DNA from: Alkalimonas sp. | Lineage (GTDB): Bacteria; Pseudomonadota; Gammaproteobacteria; Enterobacterales; Alteromonadaceae | Length of the DNA stretch: 64,000 nt | Reading direction: 5' to 3' | Assembly: GCF_020831925.1 (NCBI RefSeq) | Contig: NZ_JAFIFQ010000006.1 | Span: forward strand, 1-64,000 | Shown here: piece after piece, positions 3,298 through 46,670 of the stretch | How positions within the stretch are numbered: position 1 is the first letter of the stretch | Layout of the letters: each line of letters opens with the position of its first letter | The notes under the pieces: generated by a model | Told to the model about the DNA's origin: nothing | What the model saw: the letters and a program-made list of their open reading frames with translations, nothing else | The model's database searches: none | Program-made: the position numbers and the translations under genes

Positions 3298-4974
3298 TTA
3301 CTGATCTTTTTGAGCAGCTTTAAAGGCTTCAGCCATGGCATTGGCACCAAAGTCAGTTTCTTCCTGCTTATTGATGCTATCCAGAGCTTCTTTTTCTTCC
3401 GCTTCGTCTTTCGCACGGATTGACAGGCTGATCACACGGTTTTTGCGATCCACACCCATCAGGCGAGCTTCAACTTCTTCACCTACTTTCAGGGCAGAAG
3501 TTGCATCTTCGATGCGCTCACGAGCGATATCAGAAACACGGACGTAGCCTTCAACGCCACCTTCCAGTGCAACGGTTGCGCCTTTGGCATCAACAGCGGT
3601 CACTTCACCTTTAACAATAGCACCTTTCTTGTTGTCAGCAAGGTAGTTATTGAATGGATCGTCATCCAGTTGTTTGATACCTAAAGAAATACGCTCGCGC
3701 TCAGGGTCAACTTGCAGTACAACAGCGTGTACTTCGTCACCCTTCTTGAACTCACGAACGGCTTCTTCGCCTGTGGCATTCCAAGAGATGTCAGACAGGT
3801 GAACCAGGCCGTCGATACCACCGTCCAGACCGATAAAGATACCAAAGTCAGTGATTGACTTGATCTTACCGCTGACGCGATCGTTCTTGTTGAAGCCTTT
3901 AGCAAACTCTTCCCATGGATTTGGTTTGCACTGCTTCAGACCCAGAGAAATACGACGACGCTCTTCGTCAATTTCCAGTACCATCACTTCCACAGAGTCA
4001 CCCAGGTTAACAACCTTGGATGGGTGGATGTTCTTGTTGGTCCAATCCATCTCAGACACGTGTACTAAGCCTTCAACGCCTTCTTCGATTTCAACGAAGC
4101 AGCCGTAGTCAGTCAGGTTGGTTACGCGACCAGTGATTTTAGCGCCTTCAGGGTAACGTGAAGCAATAGCGGCCCACGGATCTTCACCCATTTGCTTCAG
4201 ACCCAGAGAAACACGTTGCTTCTCACGGTCAAACTTCAGTACCTTCACAGGGATTTCGTCACCGACATTGACGATTTCGCTTGGATGCTTCACACGCTTC
4301 CAGGCCATATCAGTGATGTGCAGCAGGCCGTCAACGCCGCCCAGATCAACGAAAGCACCGTAGTCAGTCAGGTTCTTAACGATACCTTTAACTTCCATGC
4401 CCTCTTCCAGGTTTTCCAGCAGTTGCTCGCGCTCTGCGCTGTTTTCAGACTCGATCACCGCACGACGTGATACCACCACGTTGTTGCGCTTTTGATCCAG
4501 CTTGATTACTTTGAATTCTAGCTCTTTGTTCTCCAGGTGCAGGGTGTCACGTACCGGACGGACATCAACCAGAGAACCAGGCAGGAATGCACGAATACCA
4601 TCAACTTCAACCGTGAAGCCACCTTTCACTTTACCGGTGATAACACCGTGTACAGTTTCTTTGTCTTCACAGGCTTTTTCCAGGCGCAGCCATGACTCAT
4701 GACGCTTCGCTTTTTCGCGAGACAGCAGAGTTTCACCAAAACCGTCTTCGATAGCGTCCAGAGCAACGTCGATGATGTCGCCGACATTTACTTCAAGCTC
4801 GCCACTGCTGTTCTTGAATTGCTCGACTGGGATTGCTGCTTCAGACTTCAGACCAGCGTCAACCATAACGACGTCTTTCAGTACAGCAACAACGGTGCCT
4901 TTAACAATGGCGCCCGGGCGAGTTTCGATGGCTTTGAGGCTTTCCTCAAATAATTGTGCAAAATTTTCAGTCAT
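3298..4974 (-). CDS. rpsA: 30S ribosomal protein S1
   Basis: RNA-binding ribosomal protein that docks mRNA on the 30S subunit. The 558 residues match the standard six-domain S1 of gammaproteobacteria (557 in E. coli). Tandem S1/OB-fold domains are visible through repeated segments such as [43 protein letters not shown] and [22 protein letters not shown], and a more divergent C-terminal domain. The start [12 protein letters not shown] is the conserved one. It lies between cmk and ihfB. In E. coli this gene is autoregulated through its structured leader; the 99-base gap upstream here also contains GC-rich inverted repeats. Confidence 0.98.
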
Positions 4975-5073
4975 AGGTTAGTTTTCAACATGTTTGCTCC
5001 ACATTACATCCTGTGCAGTGGGGTTACCAGTTTGTCCCGGCCGGTTCCGTGGCACGGGATTTTCACTCAGTGA
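4975..5073 (-). promoter_or_regulatory. rpsA leader with GC-rich inverted repeats
   Basis: The cmk-rpsA gap contains a short inverted repeat CCGT/ACGG (5047-5050 with 5054-5057) and an adjacent CCGGCCGG palindrome (5037-5044), followed by AT-rich sequence to the rpsA start. The rpsA leader folds and is bound by S1 for autoregulation in E. coli; whether these repeats serve the same role is inference. I do not see a clear promoter in this gap. Confidence 0.35.
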
Positions 5074-5760
5074 TCAGGCCAGTTTCAGTTTGCTCTGGGC
5101 ATACCGATAGACTTCGTCCAATACCTGGGTAATGTCTTTATCCGAGGAATCCAGTACCAAGGCATCGGCTGCGGCCACCAAAGGCGCTGTGGCTCTGTTG
5201 GTATCGCGCTCGTCCCTTGCCTGGATATCGTTCAAAAGGTCGCCGATTTTAACATCGAACCCCTTATTTTTCAACTGCAAAAAGCGTCTCTCGGCACGAA
5301 CTTCGGCACTTGCCGTTAAAAATATTTTAACCTTGGCTTGTGGGAATACCACGGTCCCCATATCACGACCATCGGCGACCAAACCGGGTGCTTCACGAAA
5401 TGCACGCTGACGGCGTAATAAGGCTTCACGCACTCTGGGTAAGGCCGCTACTTTTGAAGCCACAGCACCCACTTCTTCAGTGCGGATGGTAGAGCTAACA
5501 TTCTCACCTTCCAGGATAATTTTGACATCACCGTCTTCATCGGTGTCAAATTGTACATCCAGATGAGCCGCCAAAGGTTGCACCGCGTCTTCATCTTCCG
5601 GATCGATTTGATGATGAATCGCAGCAAGCGCCAGTACCCGATAGATGGCACCGCTATCCAGAAAATGCCATCCCAGTTTCTGCGCCAACAAGCGACTAAG
5701 GGTGCCTTTTCCGGAGCCACTTGGACCATCAATGGTAATGACAGCAGCGTCTTGTTGCAT
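5074..5760 (-). CDS. cmk: Cytidylate kinase
   Basis: Phosphorylates CMP and dCMP to the diphosphates in pyrimidine salvage and mRNA-turnover recycling. The 228-residue protein has the P-loop GPSGSGKGT at residues 12-20, the [11 protein letters not shown] segment of the NMP-binding region and the LID-type sequence IQARDERD. The length equals the usual 225-230. The ATG at 5760 follows a GGAGG ribosome site. It lies between aroA and rpsA as in most Gammaproteobacteria. A minus-strand TATACT at 5799-5804 could be a -10 element for an internal promoter, but no good -35 accompanies it. Confidence 0.97.
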
Positions 5761-5847
5761 TCAAGCCTCCAGGATCTTATCTCGAATTTCAGCGCGGTAG
5801 TATACAAGCTTTCATGGCAAAAAGCCTGTGAAGTTTTTAAACAAACC

Positions 5848-5879
5848 GCTTAGGTCCTGGTTAAAACCAAGACCTAAGC
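5848..5879 (-). other. Strong hairpin in the aroA-cmk gap
   Basis: A 32-base inverted repeat (15-base arms with a single G-U pair in RNA and a minimal loop) lies 18 bases past the aroA stop. The following minus-strand sequence is only moderately U-rich (GGTTTGTTTAAAAA), so it may be a leaky terminator or a 3'-end stabiliser separating serC-aroA from cmk-rpsA. The structure is directly visible; the termination strength is unknown. Confidence 0.55.
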
Positions 5880-39570: not shown

Positions 39571-40230
39571 ATGGATCCATTTAATCGGTTGGTCGTAATC
39601 ACGGACCGTGAAAAAACATCAAATCTATCGCTTCTGGCTGAGTCCGTTCATATCAAAGTTGAACAAATGACACGGTCAGAGTTTGATCAAAAAAGTATTC
39701 GTAGCAACTTACTCATAGCTTTTCCATTTGTTGGTCGTCAGTTGGGTAAACGAGGTATACCTGATGAGCTTATGCAATGCATGGCAAAAGGATCTACTTT
39801 TCTGTACCAGGCCGAAAGAAGCCTGGTAGATCCTGGTTTTTCGCTAAATATTGGCCTTCGTGGTGTTGTGTATCGTGATGAGCAGTTGGATCGGGTCCTT
39901 AATGCATTAAAAACGATGATGGCAGGTGAGTTGTATTACCCTCGCACTGTGATGTCAGGCATGGTTGATGAGGTATTACAGCAGCGCTTTAAGCAAGGTT
40001 TTAATACCGATGCACTTAGCGCTATCCAATTGTTGACGCGTCAGGAAAAACGCATTATTCAACTGGTTGCTGAAGGCTCCAGAAATAAAGAAGTAGCACT
40101 GGCTCTCAACATCAGTGCTCATACGGTGAAAGCACATTTGTCTTCGATTTTTCGTAAGACTAAATCAAGAAACCGGGTTGAACTGCTGCGTTGGATCCAA
40201 CAGTCAAACCCGGCATACACCTCAGATTAG
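39571..40230 (+). CDS. csgD: LuxR-family transcriptional regulator CsgD
   Basis: Predicted activator of curli and biofilm matrix genes. The 219 residues have an atypical receiver-like N-terminal domain (about 1-135) and a C-terminal LuxR helix-turn-helix (about 148-210: LTRQEKRIIQLVAEGSRNKEV ... TVKAHLSSIFRKTKSRNRVELLRW). Length and architecture match E. coli CsgD (216 aa). It is convergent with csgG and so lies downstream of the csgBAEFG run, unlike E. coli, where csgD is divergent from csgB. The ribosome site upstream is poor. Confidence 0.88.
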   Translation: MDPFNRLVVITDREKTSNLSLLAESVHIKVEQMTRSEFDQKSIRSNLLIAFPFVGRQLGKRGIPDELMQCMAKGSTFLYQAERSLVDPGFSLNIGLRGVVYRDEQLDRVLNALKTMMAGELYYPRTVMSGMVDEVLQQRFKQGFNTDALSAIQLLTRQEKRIIQLVAEGSRNKEVALALNISAHTVKAHLSSIFRKTKSRNRVELLRWIQQSNPAYTSD

Positions 40231-40274: not shown

Positions 40275-41069
40275 CTAACTCGCACCTGAAACTGAACTGG
40301 TACCATCCGAAGAGGCAGAGCCAGGACGCCAGAAACCGCGTTGCACGCCTTTTTCTATCAAGTCAGCGACCGCTGTTTCCATGGCTTGACGAACTGAAAA
40401 CTGAACCGGTTCATTGGTAGAAAACCCCGTCTCCATTTCAGCCAACCTATCGATGGCAACATAACGAAACAAACCGGCACGCATTTCATGCGAGAAGACT
40501 TTCTTAGTGGCTGATACAGACAGCAAGACTTGGCCTGTATGCACATCGATCGCCCGTAAATAGACAGTCACTTGATCTTCACGGAATAATTCGGATGCCC
40601 CTATACCAAAGTACTCTACCCCAAAACCGCCAGTGGTCAGGTTTGTTTCGTAACTGATAATACCACCCTCGAACAGCAACCTGGCCTCACGCAGCGGTGG
40701 AAGCTCTTGACCACTTCGGCTGGAGCCATGAATTTTGCGCTCCGTCAGCAAATTTTGTAGCCCCTCACGCTCCAAAGGTGCAAACCAACCTGTATCCAGC
40801 AGGATCTGCGTTAACATGGAAGTGCCACCTTGTGTTACTGCAGTGGAAAAGCTGGATACATTCGCCTGAGGCTTGTATTGGCCGGTCTGATCACGAAACG
40901 AATAGACAGAAACAGGAATGGCATGTTGTGGCTTTGGTTGCTGCCACAACTGCTGCATCAGACTACTTGGCTTATCAACTTCAGCCGGGCTGATGTGAAA
41001 GCGGGGTTTTGGCATCGCCGAGCAACCCGCCAGCGAAATCAGAGCGGCAAGAATGATGAACTTCTTCAT
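40275..41069 (-). CDS. csgG: Curli secretion channel lipoprotein CsgG
   Basis: Outer-membrane nonameric lipoprotein pore through which curli subunits are exported. The 264-residue precursor has a lipoprotein signal peptide with lipobox LAGC (C16), close to the E. coli length (277). Recognised by segments such as VYSFRDQTGQYKP, VTQGGTSMLTQILLDTGWF, EREGLQNLLTERKI and LRAIDVHTGQVLLSV. Its ATG follows the csgF stop after two bases, so translation is coupled. The C-terminus ends in a Ser/Gly-rich tail. Confidence 0.97.
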   Translation of the reverse strand: MKKFIILAALISLAGCSAMPKPRFHISPAEVDKPSSLMQQLWQQPKPQHAIPVSVYSFRDQTGQYKPQANVSSFSTAVTQGGTSMLTQILLDTGWFAPLEREGLQNLLTERKIHGSSRSGQELPPLREARLLFEGGIISYETNLTTGGFGVEYFGIGASELFREDQVTVYLRAIDVHTGQVLLSVSATKKVFSHEMRAGLFRYVAIDRLAEMETGFSTNEPVQFSVRQAMETAVADLIEKGVQRGFWRPGSASSDGTSSVSGAS

Positions 41070-41071
41070 GC

Positions 41072-41446
41072 TTAACCACCTATGCTTGGGATAATTAAAA
41101 TCGTGATTTCACCAGTCATTTGATTGGTAATTTCTACGCGGATACTACCATCCGTCCCTGAGCTCACATTGACTATAAACTCACCGGTATCATAGATGCC
41201 ATCCACCAAATCGCCATCAGCTATCCGCCTGGTGAGTGTATTAATGATATTGCGCTCTAAAGCCTCTCTAAACTTATCAACAAAGTTTTTTTCTACTCGG
41301 CCAGGTTGATGGATTTGTGCTTTTTGCAACAAGAAGGCCCCATTCAGTGGGTTACCGCCAAAGCTTGGGTTAATAGGGGTATAAACCAACTCAGTGCCAT
41401 GAGCAGCGCTCATAAAAAGAGTTAAGAATAACAACTTATACTTCAT
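41072..41446 (-). CDS. csgF: Curli assembly/nucleation chaperone CsgF
   Basis: Periplasm-to-surface factor that binds the CsgG channel and positions the CsgB nucleator. The 124 residues begin with a signal peptide (MKYKLLFLTLFMSAAHG) followed by the family block NPSFGGNPLNGAFLLQKAQ, which matches the CsgG-binding N-terminus of E. coli CsgF. I use the ATG at 41446, six bases after AGGA. An in-frame ATG two codons upstream abuts the ribosome site and is less likely. It lies ten bases after csgE. Confidence 0.93.
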   Translation of the reverse strand: MKYKLLFLTLFMSAAHGTELVYTPINPSFGGNPLNGAFLLQKAQIHQPGRVEKNFVDKFREALERNIINTLTRRIADGDLVDGIYDTGEFIVNVSSGTDGSIRVEITNQMTGEITILIIPSIGG

Positions 41447-41456
41447 GGTCATTCCT

Positions 41457-41843
41457 TTAAAATAATTCTTCGGCTGATTCGCCAAGTATACGGTCGGCCT
41501 GAATTCTGGCGAGCTCAGTAAGGCTCTGAAGTACAGCCTGTTCCGCAGTTTCTTTCACATCGTTGTAGCGTCTGCCAAAGTAAGTCTGATAAATCCGCCG
41601 GTCATTCATTTCGACCCAAAGTACAGTTCCAGCCTGAGGGTATACCTGTTCATAGATGACTACAGTGATATTGTCCGTTGCTGGTATATCACGCCAATAA
41701 CCTGAATAGTAAAAAACAAAGTCTTTACCAAAACGAGTAACCGTGCGATCAAGCACCAATCCCCCCAGTGTAATATCTCTGGAAATGCTCTGAGGCGTGA
41801 AAGAAGCAACAATAAATAACAGCAGATAAATTATTATTTTCAT
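41457..41843 (-). CDS. csgE: Curli export adaptor CsgE
   Basis: Periplasmic adaptor that caps the CsgG pore and brings CsgA to it. The 128 residues start with a signal peptide (about 1-21) and continue with the CsgE-family block SRDITLGGLVLDRTVTRFGKDF, then IYEQVYPQAGTVLWVEMNDRRIYQTYFGRR. Length equals E. coli CsgE (129). It is preceded by a hairpin separating it from csgA, which may lower its expression relative to the fibre subunit. Confidence 0.92.
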   Translation of the reverse strand: MKIIIYLLLFIVASFTPQSISRDITLGGLVLDRTVTRFGKDFVFYYSGYWRDIPATDNITVVIYEQVYPQAGTVLWVEMNDRRIYQTYFGRRYNDVKETAEQAVLQSLTELARIQADRILGESAEELF

Positions 41844-41853
41844 AAGGGCATAA

Positions 41854-41871
41854 AGGCGGCCTAAGCCGCCT
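41854..41871 (-). terminator. Intercistronic hairpin between csgA and csgE
   Basis: A perfect seven-base-pair AGGCGGC/GCCGCCT stem (41854-41860 with 41865-41871, loop CTAA) lies about 20 bases past the csgA stop. On the minus strand it is followed by TTTAT, too short for strong termination. A partial terminator or 3' stabiliser here would give abundant csgA mRNA and less csgEFG mRNA. Confidence 0.6.
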
Positions 41872-41890: not shown

Positions 41891-43444
41891 TTAATGTTGA
41901 ATCACAGTAGCTGTATTGAAGTCACCTACCTGAGTGACAGACATCACATTTCCAGCACCCATCTGTGAACCCATGACCAGGTTATCATTACCCATTTGTG
42001 AGATGGAGACCAAACCGGAATTGCCTCCTTGAACAAACGAAGGTCCTGCGTTGCCAGTTACCCAGTTGCCAGTACCCACCTGGGTAATACTCATTACATT
42101 GTCACTGCCAGCCAGAAGTACATCAATCAAGTTGAAGTCCCCTTGTTGCTGTGCCGTGAATCGCTGATTTAACAGAAGGCCACTGTCACCTGTAGCAATA
42201 ACTTCGTTGAAATCACCGGACTGTTCAATCGAAAACTGATTATCAGCTCCAACAAACTCAACATAAGCAAAATTATCAGCGCCATCCTGATTTATTTCGA
42301 TAACATTATCAAAACCAAAATCAACATTTCCCAGCGCGAAGTTTCCGCTTCCGTCTTGCTCAATTACGATGGTGTTGTTGTAACCAAAGGCTGCAGCACC
42401 AGCGTAATTAAACTCCCCTGAACTATGAATAAAGGCCTGGTTCATTCCACCATCCAGCACAACTTCACCGACATTTTGGCTGCCTTCCTGATAAATCTCA
42501 ATATCATGACCATCACCAAAGGTTGCGAAGAATGCTATGTTTTCGTTGCCTTGCTGCCATACATCGATAAGGTTGTCATTACCAGTTACACCAATAGGCG
42601 CATCAACTTCGTTAGCAACACCTTCTTGTTGAACCCAGATGGTATTATCAACACCAGCCAGAGGCTCTAAAATAAAAACGTTCTGAGCTCCGTCCTGATA
42701 TACATCTACCAAGTTGCCTTCCCCACTGACATCAAAGGCAATAAAAGCGTTATCTGAACCAAATTGTTGGATATAGAAGGTGTTGTTATCACCATTCACG
42801 CCAACCACACCGCCAACGTTACCATCGCCGTATTGCTCAACTTCCATGATGTTGCCATCACCGAACAGTTGAAACATGCCTGATTCGTTAAAGCTGCCAT
42901 CCTGGACGCTAAATAACTCATTGTTATTGCCAGTAAAGCCAGCATTAGTCCAATTACCATCTCCTTCCTGAATGACTTCAACAAAGTTGGCGTCGCCTGT
43001 TAACACGATAGTTGCTTCATTCTGGTCGCCGTTTTGGAACACAGCAGCATCATTCACATCGCCTGAAATTGCAATTTCAGCCACATTCCAGAAGCCATCT
43101 TGAGTGACAGTTGCGGTGTTTTCGTTACCGGCAATATCCACAAATGCGATGTGCCAATCATCCTGTTGTTCAAGACGAATCCAGTTATCCTCACCTACGC
43201 TGAAAGCAAAAGCTTCATGCCAAACGCCATCTTGATTCACCTGGGTATCGTTTAAACTGCCATCTTGTTCGACAATTGCCAAATTAATGTTGCCGCTTTG
43301 CTCAACATAAGCTTCATTACCTTCAATAGCACCTGCAACGGATGTCTGCAATACCAAGGCTTCGTTATCAGCAAATGCTGTTCCCGAAAGTGCTAGCGCA
43401 ATAGCCACTCCCAAAACGTGTTTACGTGGATTTTTAAAACTCAT
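41891..43444 (-). CDS. csgA: Giant major curlin CsgA with about 20 repeats
   Basis: Major curli fibre subunit. The 517-residue precursor has a signal peptide ending about residue 25 (GTAFA|DN) and then a near-continuous array of curlin-like repeats. The usual core Q-x-G-x-x-N, with a second G-x-x-N half-repeat, recurs every 22-24 residues, about 20 times. E. coli CsgA is 151 residues with five repeats. The mature part has no Lys, only two Arg (in NWIRL and LNQRF), no Cys and many Asp/Glu, so it is extremely acidic. The C-terminus VIQH resembles CsgA tails. It follows csgB by 39 bases. The curlin identity is clear from repeats and operon; the exact repeat count depends on how imperfect units are scored. 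Confidence 0.93.
   Translation of the reverse strand: MSFKNPRKHVLGVAIALALSGTAFADNEALVLQTSVAGAIEGNEAYVEQSGNINLAIVEQDGSLNDTQVNQDGVWHEAFAFSVGEDNWIRLEQQDDWHIAFVDIAGNENTATVTQDGFWNVAEIAISGDVNDAAVFQNGDQNEATIVLTGDANFVEVIQEGDGNWTNAGFTGNNNELFSVQDGSFNESGMFQLFGDGNIMEVEQYGDGNVGGVVGVNGDNNTFYIQQFGSDNAFIAFDVSGEGNLVDVYQDGAQNVFILEPLAGVDNTIWVQQEGVANEVDAPIGVTGNDNLIDVWQQGNENIAFFATFGDGHDIEIYQEGSQNVGEVVLDGGMNQAFIHSSGEFNYAGAAAFGYNNTIVIEQDGSGNFALGNVDFGFDNVIEINQDGADNFAYVEFVGADNQFSIEQSGDFNEVIATGDSGLLLNQRFTAQQQGDFNLIDVLLAGSDNVMSITQVGTGNWVTGNAGPSFVQGGNSGLVSISQMGNDNLVMGSQMGAGNVMSVTQVGDFNTATVIQH
41894..43303 (-). repeat. Tandem curlin-repeat array within csgA
   Basis: The codons for about residues 48-517 encode roughly 20 imperfect 22-24-residue units with the pattern Q-x-G-x-x-N-(x8-9)-G-x-x-N-x-(hydrophobic)-x-(hydrophobic). 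The units have diverged at DNA level, so no simple identical DNA repeat is seen. Most are regular; near the C-terminal end two units are longer (around LLLNQRFTA and AGPSFVQGGNSG), which breaks the spacing. Confidence 0.9.
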
Positions 43445-44177: not shown

Positions 44178-46670
44178 ATGCGACAACTCAAAAAACTGGC
44201 CTTGGCTATTTCGGCAGCTCTGGTCGCTGGAAGTGTGATGGCTGCGCCGCAACAAGCAGCTGATGACTCCATCATAGTCGTATTTAAACCAGGTGTAGGT
44301 AAAGCAGAGCGGGAAATGGTTATGAGCCGCTCTGGTGTTTCGCTTCGCGAACTGGATGCTGAGGGACGTGATATTCGCATGAAGCATGTGGCTGATGGAC
44401 GTATTGCCAAAGTCCGCATACCACGAGGTGTTGAGCGTGATCAGTTGATCAAAAAATTAAGCCTGCATCCAGCTATTGAGATTGCAGAACCTAATTACAT
44501 TGTCCAACCACTTACCTCCCCATTGTCTCCTAACGATCCACGCTTTAATGAACTATGGGGCCTGCACAATACAGGTCAAAGTGGTGGTACGCCTGGTGCT
44601 GATATTAGCGCTGTTGAAGCCTGGCAAACTACAACCGGAAGTCGAGATATTATCATCGGTGTCATTGATACAGGTATGGATTACAACCATCCGGATTTGA
44701 TAGCTAATCGCTGGGAAAATGATGGTAGTTATCCAGGCCATCAGTTTGGCTGGTCAACACTAAATGCCAGTGGCGACCCAATGGATAGTGGTAGCCATGG
44801 CACTCATGTTGCTGGAACTATTGGCGCTGTGGGTGATAATGGGGTTGGTGTTGCAGGCGTTAGCTGGAATGTCACTCTGATCCCATGTCAGTTCCTCGGT
44901 GCCGGAGGTGGCTCTACCGCAGGCGCGATTGAATGTATCAGTTATTTTACCGATTTAAAGCTGAATCATGGTGTTGACGTTAAGGCGACTAACAACTCCT
45001 GGGGAGGTGGCGGTTTTTCAGAAGCTTTAAAGCTTGCCATTGAAGATGGAGGCGATGCAGGTATTTTGTTTATTGCTGCTTCTGGCAATGATGGTCGAAA
45101 TGCTGATCAGTTCCCTATGTATCCAGCAGCCTATGATTCAGACATTATTGTCTCTGTTGCCTCAACCGACCGCAATGATAACCTGTCCGGTTTCTCAAAT
45201 TATGGTTTAGTTAGCGTTGATCTGGGGGCTCCAGGCTCAGCCATTTTATCCACAGTGCCAGGGGCTGGTTACAGTACCTTCTCAGGCACTTCTATGGCAT
45301 CTCCTCATGTTGCTGGTGCAGCTGCACTGGTATGGTCATTGGATCCAAATATTTCAGCATTGCAGATGAAAGAAATCCTGATGCAATCAGGTGATGCTCT
45401 GCCATCACTGGATGGTCGGACAGTCTCTGGTAAACGTTTAAATGTTGCCAGCGCTTTAGAAGAAGCTGATCCAGCACCTGGTTTCCGCTTAAGCCTGGAT
45501 CCTCGCAATCAGGAAGTTATCGCCGGTGAGCAAACAGCTTACACCCTGGAGTTCAGCTCAGTAGCTGGTTGGAATGATGCAATTCAGCTTACTGTGGATG
45601 CAACACCAGCTATGCCTGGTGTTAGCTTTTCATCGGATGTAGCTTACCCTGGTGATACGGTAAGTTTATTGGTTGATACCGATGAAGATACACCATGGGG
45701 TGCCTATCAGTTCCTGATCACAGCCACGGACAGCGCGTCTGGAGACTTGGTGCGCCAGACGACCGCCAACCTGAATGTGATTCCACAAGGCTTAATGGAC
45801 TTTCCATACGAAAATACGACACCGATTGCCATCCCTGATAACAACCCTGCTGGTATTGAAAGCATTATTTCAGTAGCTGAGTCAGGTCATGTTTTTGGTG
45901 CTGAAGTGGGCGTTAATATCACCCACACCTGGCGTGGTGATTTGATTGTGCGCCTCACCTCACCAGAAGGGACAGTGCATACCTTGCATAACCGCACTGG
46001 CGGTAGCGCAGACGACCTGATCCAAAGCTGGGAAGTTGATGTTTATAACGGCGAAGCCATGCAAGGTGACTGGACCTTGTTTGTCTCAGATAACGCAGCA
46101 CTGGATACAGGTACTCTAAACAGCTGGAATCTTACGCTGACGGCTCTGCCTGATGGTGACATTGTCGACCCTGATCCGGAAGCACCTGTTGCCAGCTTTG
46201 GCTATTCAGCCTCTGGCTTACTGGTTAACTTCAGTGATCAGAGTAGCGAAGGTGATGATGCCATTGTGAGCTGGGACTGGAACTTCGGCGATGGCAGCAG
46301 CTCGTCGCAGCAAAACCCTTCGCATTTGTTCAGCGCAGCGGGCAGCTACAACGTTACCCTGACCGTTGCAGATGGCAATGGCTTGACGGACAGTACCTCT
46401 CAGACCGTGACCGTAAGTGATGTGATCAGCTCTATCGACCTGTGGGTGCATCGTGCGCAGCAAGCCCGCACAGGCTCGAGCATCGTTGACTTACGCTGGT
46501 CAGGTGCGGACAGCCGGGTAGATCTTTACCGCGATGGCGTTAAGGTAGCTACCCTTGAAAATCAGGGCCGCTACCGTGATCGCTTCAATACAACTGCCAG
46601 CCAGGTTGTTTATCAGCTGTGTGCTGAAAACACAGACCAATGCTCAGCAGAAATTGTTGCGCAATTTTAA
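44178..46670 (+). CDS. Secreted subtilisin-like S8 protease with P and PKD domains
   Basis: Predicted exported serine endopeptidase. The 830-residue precursor has a signal peptide (cleavage near MAAP, about 22), an I9-like propeptide (about 30-110) and a subtilase domain with the triad D164 (VIDTGMDY), H207 (SHGTHVAG) and S372 (SGTSMASPH) plus oxyanion N304 (ASGND). A middle beta domain precedes a P/Homo B domain (about 540-665, with LIVRLTSPEGTVHTLHN and WTLFVSDNAALDTGTLNSW), a PKD domain (about 676-755, WDWNFGDGSSSSQQNPSH) and a C-terminal FN3-like segment. Such accessory domains bind substrates in marine extracellular proteases. It is divergent from the curli operon; an intrinsic terminator follows. 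Confidence 0.92.
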   Translation: MRQLKKLALAISAALVAGSVMAAPQQAADDSIIVVFKPGVGKAEREMVMSRSGVSLRELDAEGRDIRMKHVADGRIAKVRIPRGVERDQLIKKLSLHPAIEIAEPNYIVQPLTSPLSPNDPRFNELWGLHNTGQSGGTPGADISAVEAWQTTTGSRDIIIGVIDTGMDYNHPDLIANRWENDGSYPGHQFGWSTLNASGDPMDSGSHGTHVAGTIGAVGDNGVGVAGVSWNVTLIPCQFLGAGGGSTAGAIECISYFTDLKLNHGVDVKATNNSWGGGGFSEALKLAIEDGGDAGILFIAASGNDGRNADQFPMYPAAYDSDIIVSVASTDRNDNLSGFSNYGLVSVDLGAPGSAILSTVPGAGYSTFSGTSMASPHVAGAAALVWSLDPNISALQMKEILMQSGDALPSLDGRTVSGKRLNVASALEEADPAPGFRLSLDPRNQEVIAGEQTAYTLEFSSVAGWNDAIQLTVDATPAMPGVSFSSDVAYPGDTVSLLVDTDEDTPWGAYQFLITATDSASGDLVRQTTANLNVIPQGLMDFPYENTTPIAIPDNNPAGIESIISVAESGHVFGAEVGVNITHTWRGDLIVRLTSPEGTVHTLHNRTGGSADDLIQSWEVDVYNGEAMQGDWTLFVSDNAALDTGTLNSWNLTLTALPDGDIVDPDPEAPVASFGYSASGLLVNFSDQSSEGDDAIVSWDWNFGDGSSSSQQNPSHLFSAAGSYNVTLTVADGNGLTDSTSQTVTVSDVISSIDLWVHRAQQARTGSSIVDLRWSGADSRVDLYRDGVKVATLENQGRYRDRFNTTASQVVYQLCAENTDQCSAEIVAQF

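Follow-up and report, generated by a model that had tools for sequence, protein, structure and literature searches.

A long, acidic CsgA in a csgBAEFG curli locus of Alkalimonas is of the type usual in its family

Introduction

Curli are amyloid fibers that give bacterial biofilms their cohesion. Their major subunit, CsgA, is known to vary in length, and the systems closest to the one described here come from two studies, both cited from excerpts. According to the excerpt of PMC3521004, CsgA reaches 529 residues and 22 repeats in non-enterobacterial orders, while CsgB shows no such variation; in Alteromonas and Pseudoalteromonas, the genes form one csgBAEFG operon, and csgD lies downstream of it, facing the other way. 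In the excerpt of PMC10192328, CsgA repeat numbers range from 4 to 62, with maxima near 5, 7–8, 15, and 22, and three CsgA classes are distinguished, one of which has degenerate motifs and insertions. Repeat number alters the length of the subunit, while the lateral dimensions of the fiber are conserved. The same excerpt describes R15.5, the CsgA of Pontibacter korlensis (8c50), which displays a grid of Glu and Asp for which bridging by divalent cations was hypothesized, and which becomes encrusted in excess calcium, in the authors' opinion as calcium phosphate.

The DNA analyzed here, referred to as the window, is a 64,000-nucleotide stretch (positions 1 to 64,000 of contig NZ_JAFIFQ010000006.1) from Alkalimonas sp. 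Members of Alkalimonas are haloalkaliphiles, and Alkalimonas amylolytica is, from a published title, reportedly the source of an alkaline amylase. A literature search returned no paper pairing Alkalimonas with curli, and a search for CsgA or curli amyloid of alkaliphiles and haloalkaliphiles gave, as judged by the listing of its results, nothing on the topic. Alkalimonas is not met in the excerpt of PMC3521004.

Results

Organization of the csg locus

An initial annotation, made from the sequence alone, had identified csgA correctly and at exact coordinates (Table 1), and had rightly stated that curlins of variable repeat number are already described; the location of the gene on the minus strand is a detail absent from it. 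The csgB, csgE, csgF, and csgG genes accompany csgA on a single strand in csgBAEFG order. The csgB product matched the NCBIfam CsgB model with an E-value of 7.1e-11, under the cut-off of that model, and the true start of csgF is probably an internal ATG near position 41446. The CsgG match at this locus was the only one in the organism's own genome. The csgD-like gene is so named because of its position, since its top NCBIfam match, CsgD (E = 7.5e-17), was far under cut-off and NarL was almost level with it. A promoter scan yielded nine sites, which is not above shuffled sequences (mean of 10.8), and terminator-like sites were likewise not above shuffles (5 against 4.7). Divergent from csgB, at positions 44178–46670, lies a gene coding for an 830-residue subtilase with proprotein-convertase P and PKD domains, whose computed pI of 4.34 makes it the second most acidic product among the 28 window frames of at least 250 residues.

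Table 1. Coordinates of csg locus features in the window
Feature	Positions	Strand	Basis and remarks
csgB, minor curlin/nucleator, 132 aa	43484..43882	-	PF07012, E = 1.6e-06; TTG start as listed, putative
csgA, major curlin subunit	41891..43444	-	517 aa, ~20–22 curlin repeats, net charge ~-71
CsgA probable signal peptide, residues 1–25	43370..43444	-	By eye from translation; helix 7–19 in model
CsgA residues 413–487, holding both longer C-terminal intervals	41984..42208	-	Turn spacing; aligned across relatives
G+C-rich hairpin, csgA–csgE gap	41854..41871	-	Palindrome; terminator scan gave + strand only
csgE	41457..41843	-	PF10627, E = 6.9e-34
csgF	41072..41485	-	PF10614, E = 4e-23; frame as listed
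csgG, outer-membrane secretion channel	40275..41069	-	PF03783, E = 4.8e-77
csgD-like LuxR-type regulator	39571..40230	+	PF00196, E = 1e-15; convergent with csg operon

The csgA product

The protein has the length initially reported, and the estimate of about 20 repeats was borne out by 20 QxGxxN motifs; we further counted 38 G-x-x-N/H turns, and motifs, turns, and Pfam matches put the repeats at 22–23 residues each. A curlin-profile search, which the initial annotation had proposed as a check, gave an E-value of 2.1e-53 for Pfam Curlin_rpt (PF07012) against the whole protein, with 15 stretches each passing E ≤ 1 alone, and revealed tandem repeats along the greater part of the mature protein. 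A chance origin of these repeats need not be considered. The NCBIfam equivalog for enterobacterial-type CsgA (NF007470) scored 112.7 bits, under its cut-off of 160, and was outscored by the NCBIfam CsgB model (138.1 bits), which also missed its cut-off (165). These models span 150–151 positions and would represent the short enterobacterial form; the shortfall thus narrows the name that can be given to the protein, and not its repeat family.

A signal peptide is probable at the N-terminus, which by eye has a basic start, a hydrophobic stretch, and an A-F-A end. Cleavage was placed by eye after residue 25, and the fixed 25-residue cut used in the following counts is approximate. Both lysines of the protein sit inside this segment. 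The remaining 492 residues contain no Lys, two Arg, five His, 42 Asp, 31 Glu, and no Cys, as the initial description of an Asp/Glu-rich, lysine- and cysteine-free mature part with two arginines had it, and have a computed pI of 4.05 and a charge of ca. −71 at pH 7.

AlphaFold2, run with an alignment of 34 CsgA sequences (described below), gave a model with a mean pLDDT of 89.8 and a pTM of 0.84, all-beta after the signal, with strands broadly tracking the half-units of the repeats. The profile of the same alignment matched solved curli, 8c50 with an E-value of 2.8e-57 and 8enq with 3e-07. A Foldseek search of the model against the PDB produced no match at E ≤ 0.001, and a VIA search gave tailspikes and enzymes of the beta-helix type, none of the 50 matches listed being a curli chain. 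That the structure matches are beta-helix lyases and tailspikes could be taken to mean that the protein is some other beta-solenoid adhesin, or an enzyme-like beta-helix, and not a curli subunit; with every Foldseek beta-helix match at E > 0.001, against the PF07012 score, the profile match to 8c50, and the csgBAEFG context, the probability of this is practically negligible, and we treat the protein as a curlin.

Repeat register and placement of charge

From residue 54 onward, the turns of CsgA are spaced 11–13 residues apart, except for three longer intervals. One, of 22 residues (87–108), arises where a turn has D for G; the other two, of 25 residues at 413–437 and 28 residues at 460–487, are the pair of irregular units noticed earlier near the C-terminus, which are real. 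Acidic residues follow the register strictly: in the 28 regular 11-residue half-units, positions 1, 3, 5, 7, and 9 are acidic in 0 of 28 cases, and positions 2, 4, 6, 8, 10, and 11 in 6, 9, 5, 11, 10, and 6 cases, respectively. Throughout the 34 aligned sequences (668 half-units), the acid fraction was 0.0 (with rounding to two decimals) at the same five positions and 0.25–0.46 elsewhere. Combined with the register published in PMC10192328 (excerpt), acid-free core positions mean that the charge lies in loops and on the fiber surface.

Gln occupies position 7 in 21 of the 38 half-units, mostly in every second one, and in successive ones at both ends of the array. Its absence from the other 17, together with the irregular intervals, is what one might expect if csgA were degenerate or dead, the loss of Gln in alternate half-units reflecting relaxed constraint. 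The relatives make this very improbable: the frame is kept across the genus and the family, 42 columns, all of them Asn, Gln, or Gly, are invariant in the 34 sequences, and the alternation of Gln is also seen in the relatives' alignment. A decaying csgA was rejected on the strength of this alignment, and the gene is considered below as that of an ordinary curlin.

The charge is unevenly distributed along CsgA. Net charge per 44-residue segment ranges from −4 to −10 for segments starting at residues 26–400, and is −2 in each of those starting at 422, 444, and 466. In the four full-length genus members, the last 70 residues carry −4.3 to −7.1 per 100 residues. Outside the genus, values of −2.9 to −7.1 were obtained for genomes G022, G067, G147, G095, and G006, −8.6 for G128, and −10 to −14.3 for all remaining full-length relatives.

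Comparison with the genus and the family

A curlin frame was present in five of six Alkalimonas genomes, the organism's own included; four of the frames comprise 521, 523, 525 (own), and 530 codons, and the fifth, of 420 codons, runs off its contig. No curlin match was obtained in the sixth genome, which is 71% complete. The window CsgA is 98% identical over residues 1–517 to a protein of Alkalimonas amylolytica CGMCC 1.3430, and a match in an Alkalimonas MAG is 80% identical in its best segment.

In the GTDB family, a CsgG-family match was found in 76 of 147 genomes, many of these matches being weak. We fetched the loci of all 31 strong CsgG matches (E < 1e-70) outside the genus, which come from 30 genomes, plus five stretches from four genus genomes. 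Each of the 31 strong CsgG places had a curlin frame of more than 300 residues within 7 kb; 30 of these frames code for full-length CsgA of 443–581 residues, and one for a protein of 306 residues. The comparison set consists of 33 full-length CsgA besides that of the window, 30 from outside the genus and three from genus members; it leaves out L091 (the 306-residue protein, from a second locus of genome G126) and L098 (413 residues, cut by a contig end). The 34-sequence alignment excludes L091 and L082, the length and charge counts of the latter being equal to those of L081. Starts of the relatives' proteins were set at the first Met, so that some lengths may be slightly off either way.

The 33 relatives have 443–581 residues, 13–20 QxGxxN motifs, and net charges of −42 to −87; per 100 residues, the charge runs from −9.3 to −18.8. 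The window CsgA is on the long side, with four of the 33 (three of 30 outside the genus) as long or longer. It is low in basic residues, only two of the 33 having no more than two Lys and Arg combined; Lys is absent also from six of them (4/30 outside the genus). Other curlin frames at the family loci, where listed by the filter, code for at most 176 residues and have −1.4 to −11.7 charges per 100. The initial annotation had singled out the length and acidity of CsgA as unusual; a CsgA of this kind proved to be standard for the genus and, in size and charge, for the GTDB family as well. An exceptional length or charge was thus rejected, and no surprise is left in the window CsgA. A C-terminal irregularity peculiar to this csgA was rejected likewise, since the region aligns with that of relatives; a loose pattern for the second irregular unit, written post hoc, matched 29 of the 34 sequences, and among all 34 there is one that is cut short ahead of this unit.

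The window CsgA has −14.4 charges per 100 residues; 22 of the 33 relatives equal or exceed it in acidity, as do 20 of the 30 that come from outside the genus, so nothing about its acid density is specific to the organism of the window. This bears on the reading that the acidic surface is not a family-wide trait but this organism's own adaptation for binding calcium or magnesium, by way of cross-linking or a mineral crust. The outward positions of the acids agree with such an adaptation, the density in relatives does not, and soda lakes are poor in free Ca and Mg; we judge it unlikely. Speaking for it is also the calcium crust of a long CsgA, with its hypothesized divalent bridges (PMC10192328, excerpt). 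We prefer to regard the acidity as a property of the family.

At the sequence level, CsgA is divergent. Identity to family CsgA from outside the genus is 30–54%, and curlins from large Pseudoalteromonas replicons aligned with 98–99% query coverage at 29–33% identity. A protein search of 369 genomes of the class gave matches at E ≤ 0.001 in seven, the organism's own included, indicating that the form is not widespread at the sequence level in this sample.

Two further curlin loci deserve mention. In genome G006, a match running through two stops suggested a decayed extra curlin copy; it begins in a short curlin frame beside csgA and ends in csgA itself, so that the stops need no such copy, and this candidate was rejected. 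Locus L091 of genome G126, at the second strong CsgG place of that genome, codes at positions 4933–5850 (plus strand) for a 306-residue curlin with six QxGxxN motifs and a net charge of −36; together with the second CsgG, it is possibly a second curli system, G126 having a 473-residue CsgA at another locus.

A hairpin downstream of csgA

On the csg strand, only a short T run follows the palindrome between csgA and csgE, which is why the terminator scan listed it for the plus strand alone. Hairpins of at least seven pairs with loops of at most 12 bases were found in 30 of 35 csgA 3′ flanks of 120 bases (the window and L091 counted), as compared with 95 of 700 random windows taken from these loci and 44 of 700 shuffled sequences; the random windows are largely coding and the related loci are not independent, which limits the comparison. 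In 26 of the 30 flanks, the hairpin begins 9–38 bases into the flank, and the five flanks lacking a qualifying hairpin contain stems with bigger loops or interruptions. It is possible that the hairpin acts as a leaky terminator or as a stabilizer of the mRNA 3′ end, lowering csgEFG relative to csgBA.

Discussion

We consider it almost certain that csgBAEFG and the convergent csgD-like gene make up an ordinary locus for curli (type VIII secretion), and that its CsgA belongs to the long, acidic type that is usual for the family. Judging by the families to which the gene products belong, CsgA would be exported by Sec, pass unfolded through CsgG with the help of CsgE and CsgF, and be nucleated by CsgB at the cell surface into a beta-solenoid amyloid fiber, each repeat presumably supplying two strands. 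With an N-x-psi-x-psi-x-Q core devoid of acids and with acids pointing outward or lying in loops, the surface of such a fiber should be strongly negative and its core standard. Extra repeats would yield a longer building block with an unchanged fiber cross-section (PMC10192328, excerpt).

In a saline or alkaline habitat, the negative surface most likely keeps fibers dispersed, and it may bind divalent cations. Binding of calcium or other metals by the window CsgA, suggested in the initial annotation, is plausible, and the idea is already present in the excerpt of PMC10192328; the remarks of that annotation on repeat number, length, charge, and calcium lie within what the excerpts of PMC3521004 and PMC10192328 contain. 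A more elaborate picture, which we offer as speculation and think doubtful, is that the CsgA array of this lineage is non-uniform, with a strongly acidic body bearing one Gln ladder, conserved irregular intervals, and a low-charge C-terminal canonical segment serving as the nucleation or docking end; the body would set fiber spacing and ion binding at high pH, and the hairpin after csgA would determine how much subunit is made relative to the secretion components.

For the interpretation of such genes, the main consequence is that a long, acidic, many-repeat CsgA is usual in this family and should not be measured against the short protein of E. coli, which removes a false lead. The window CsgA also provides a clean case, from a probable alkaliphile, of a curli subunit whose acids are restricted to outward positions, and could be used to test the effect of surface charge on fiber bundling and ion binding.

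Comparison with known curli systems

E. coli K-12 CsgA, which indeed has five repeats as the initial annotation stated (five QxGxxN motifs counted), is a protein of 151 residues with a net charge of −6 over 131 residues, compared with 517 residues and −71 for the window CsgA. The two systems have in common the curlin repeat, the CsgB partner, and CsgE, CsgF, and CsgG; a solved structure of a major curlin subunit is available as 8enq. In E. coli, there are two divergent csg operons with csgC, whereas at the window locus the csgA–csgE gap is just 47 bases. The closest likeness in organization is to the operons of Alteromonas and Pseudoalteromonas as described in the excerpt of PMC3521004: gene order and csgD placement are the same, and no essential difference was seen. 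At the protein level, the window CsgA resembles R15.5 (8c50) in being a long, multi-repeat subunit with outward Asp and Glu, and in the profile match given above. R15.5 has 15.5 repeats, the core residues of its motifs a and b being nearly identical (PMC10192328, excerpt), whereas in the window CsgA alternate half-units mostly lack Gln and some of the intervals are extended, which brings it nearer to the degenerate class of that study, as far as its excerpt describes it.
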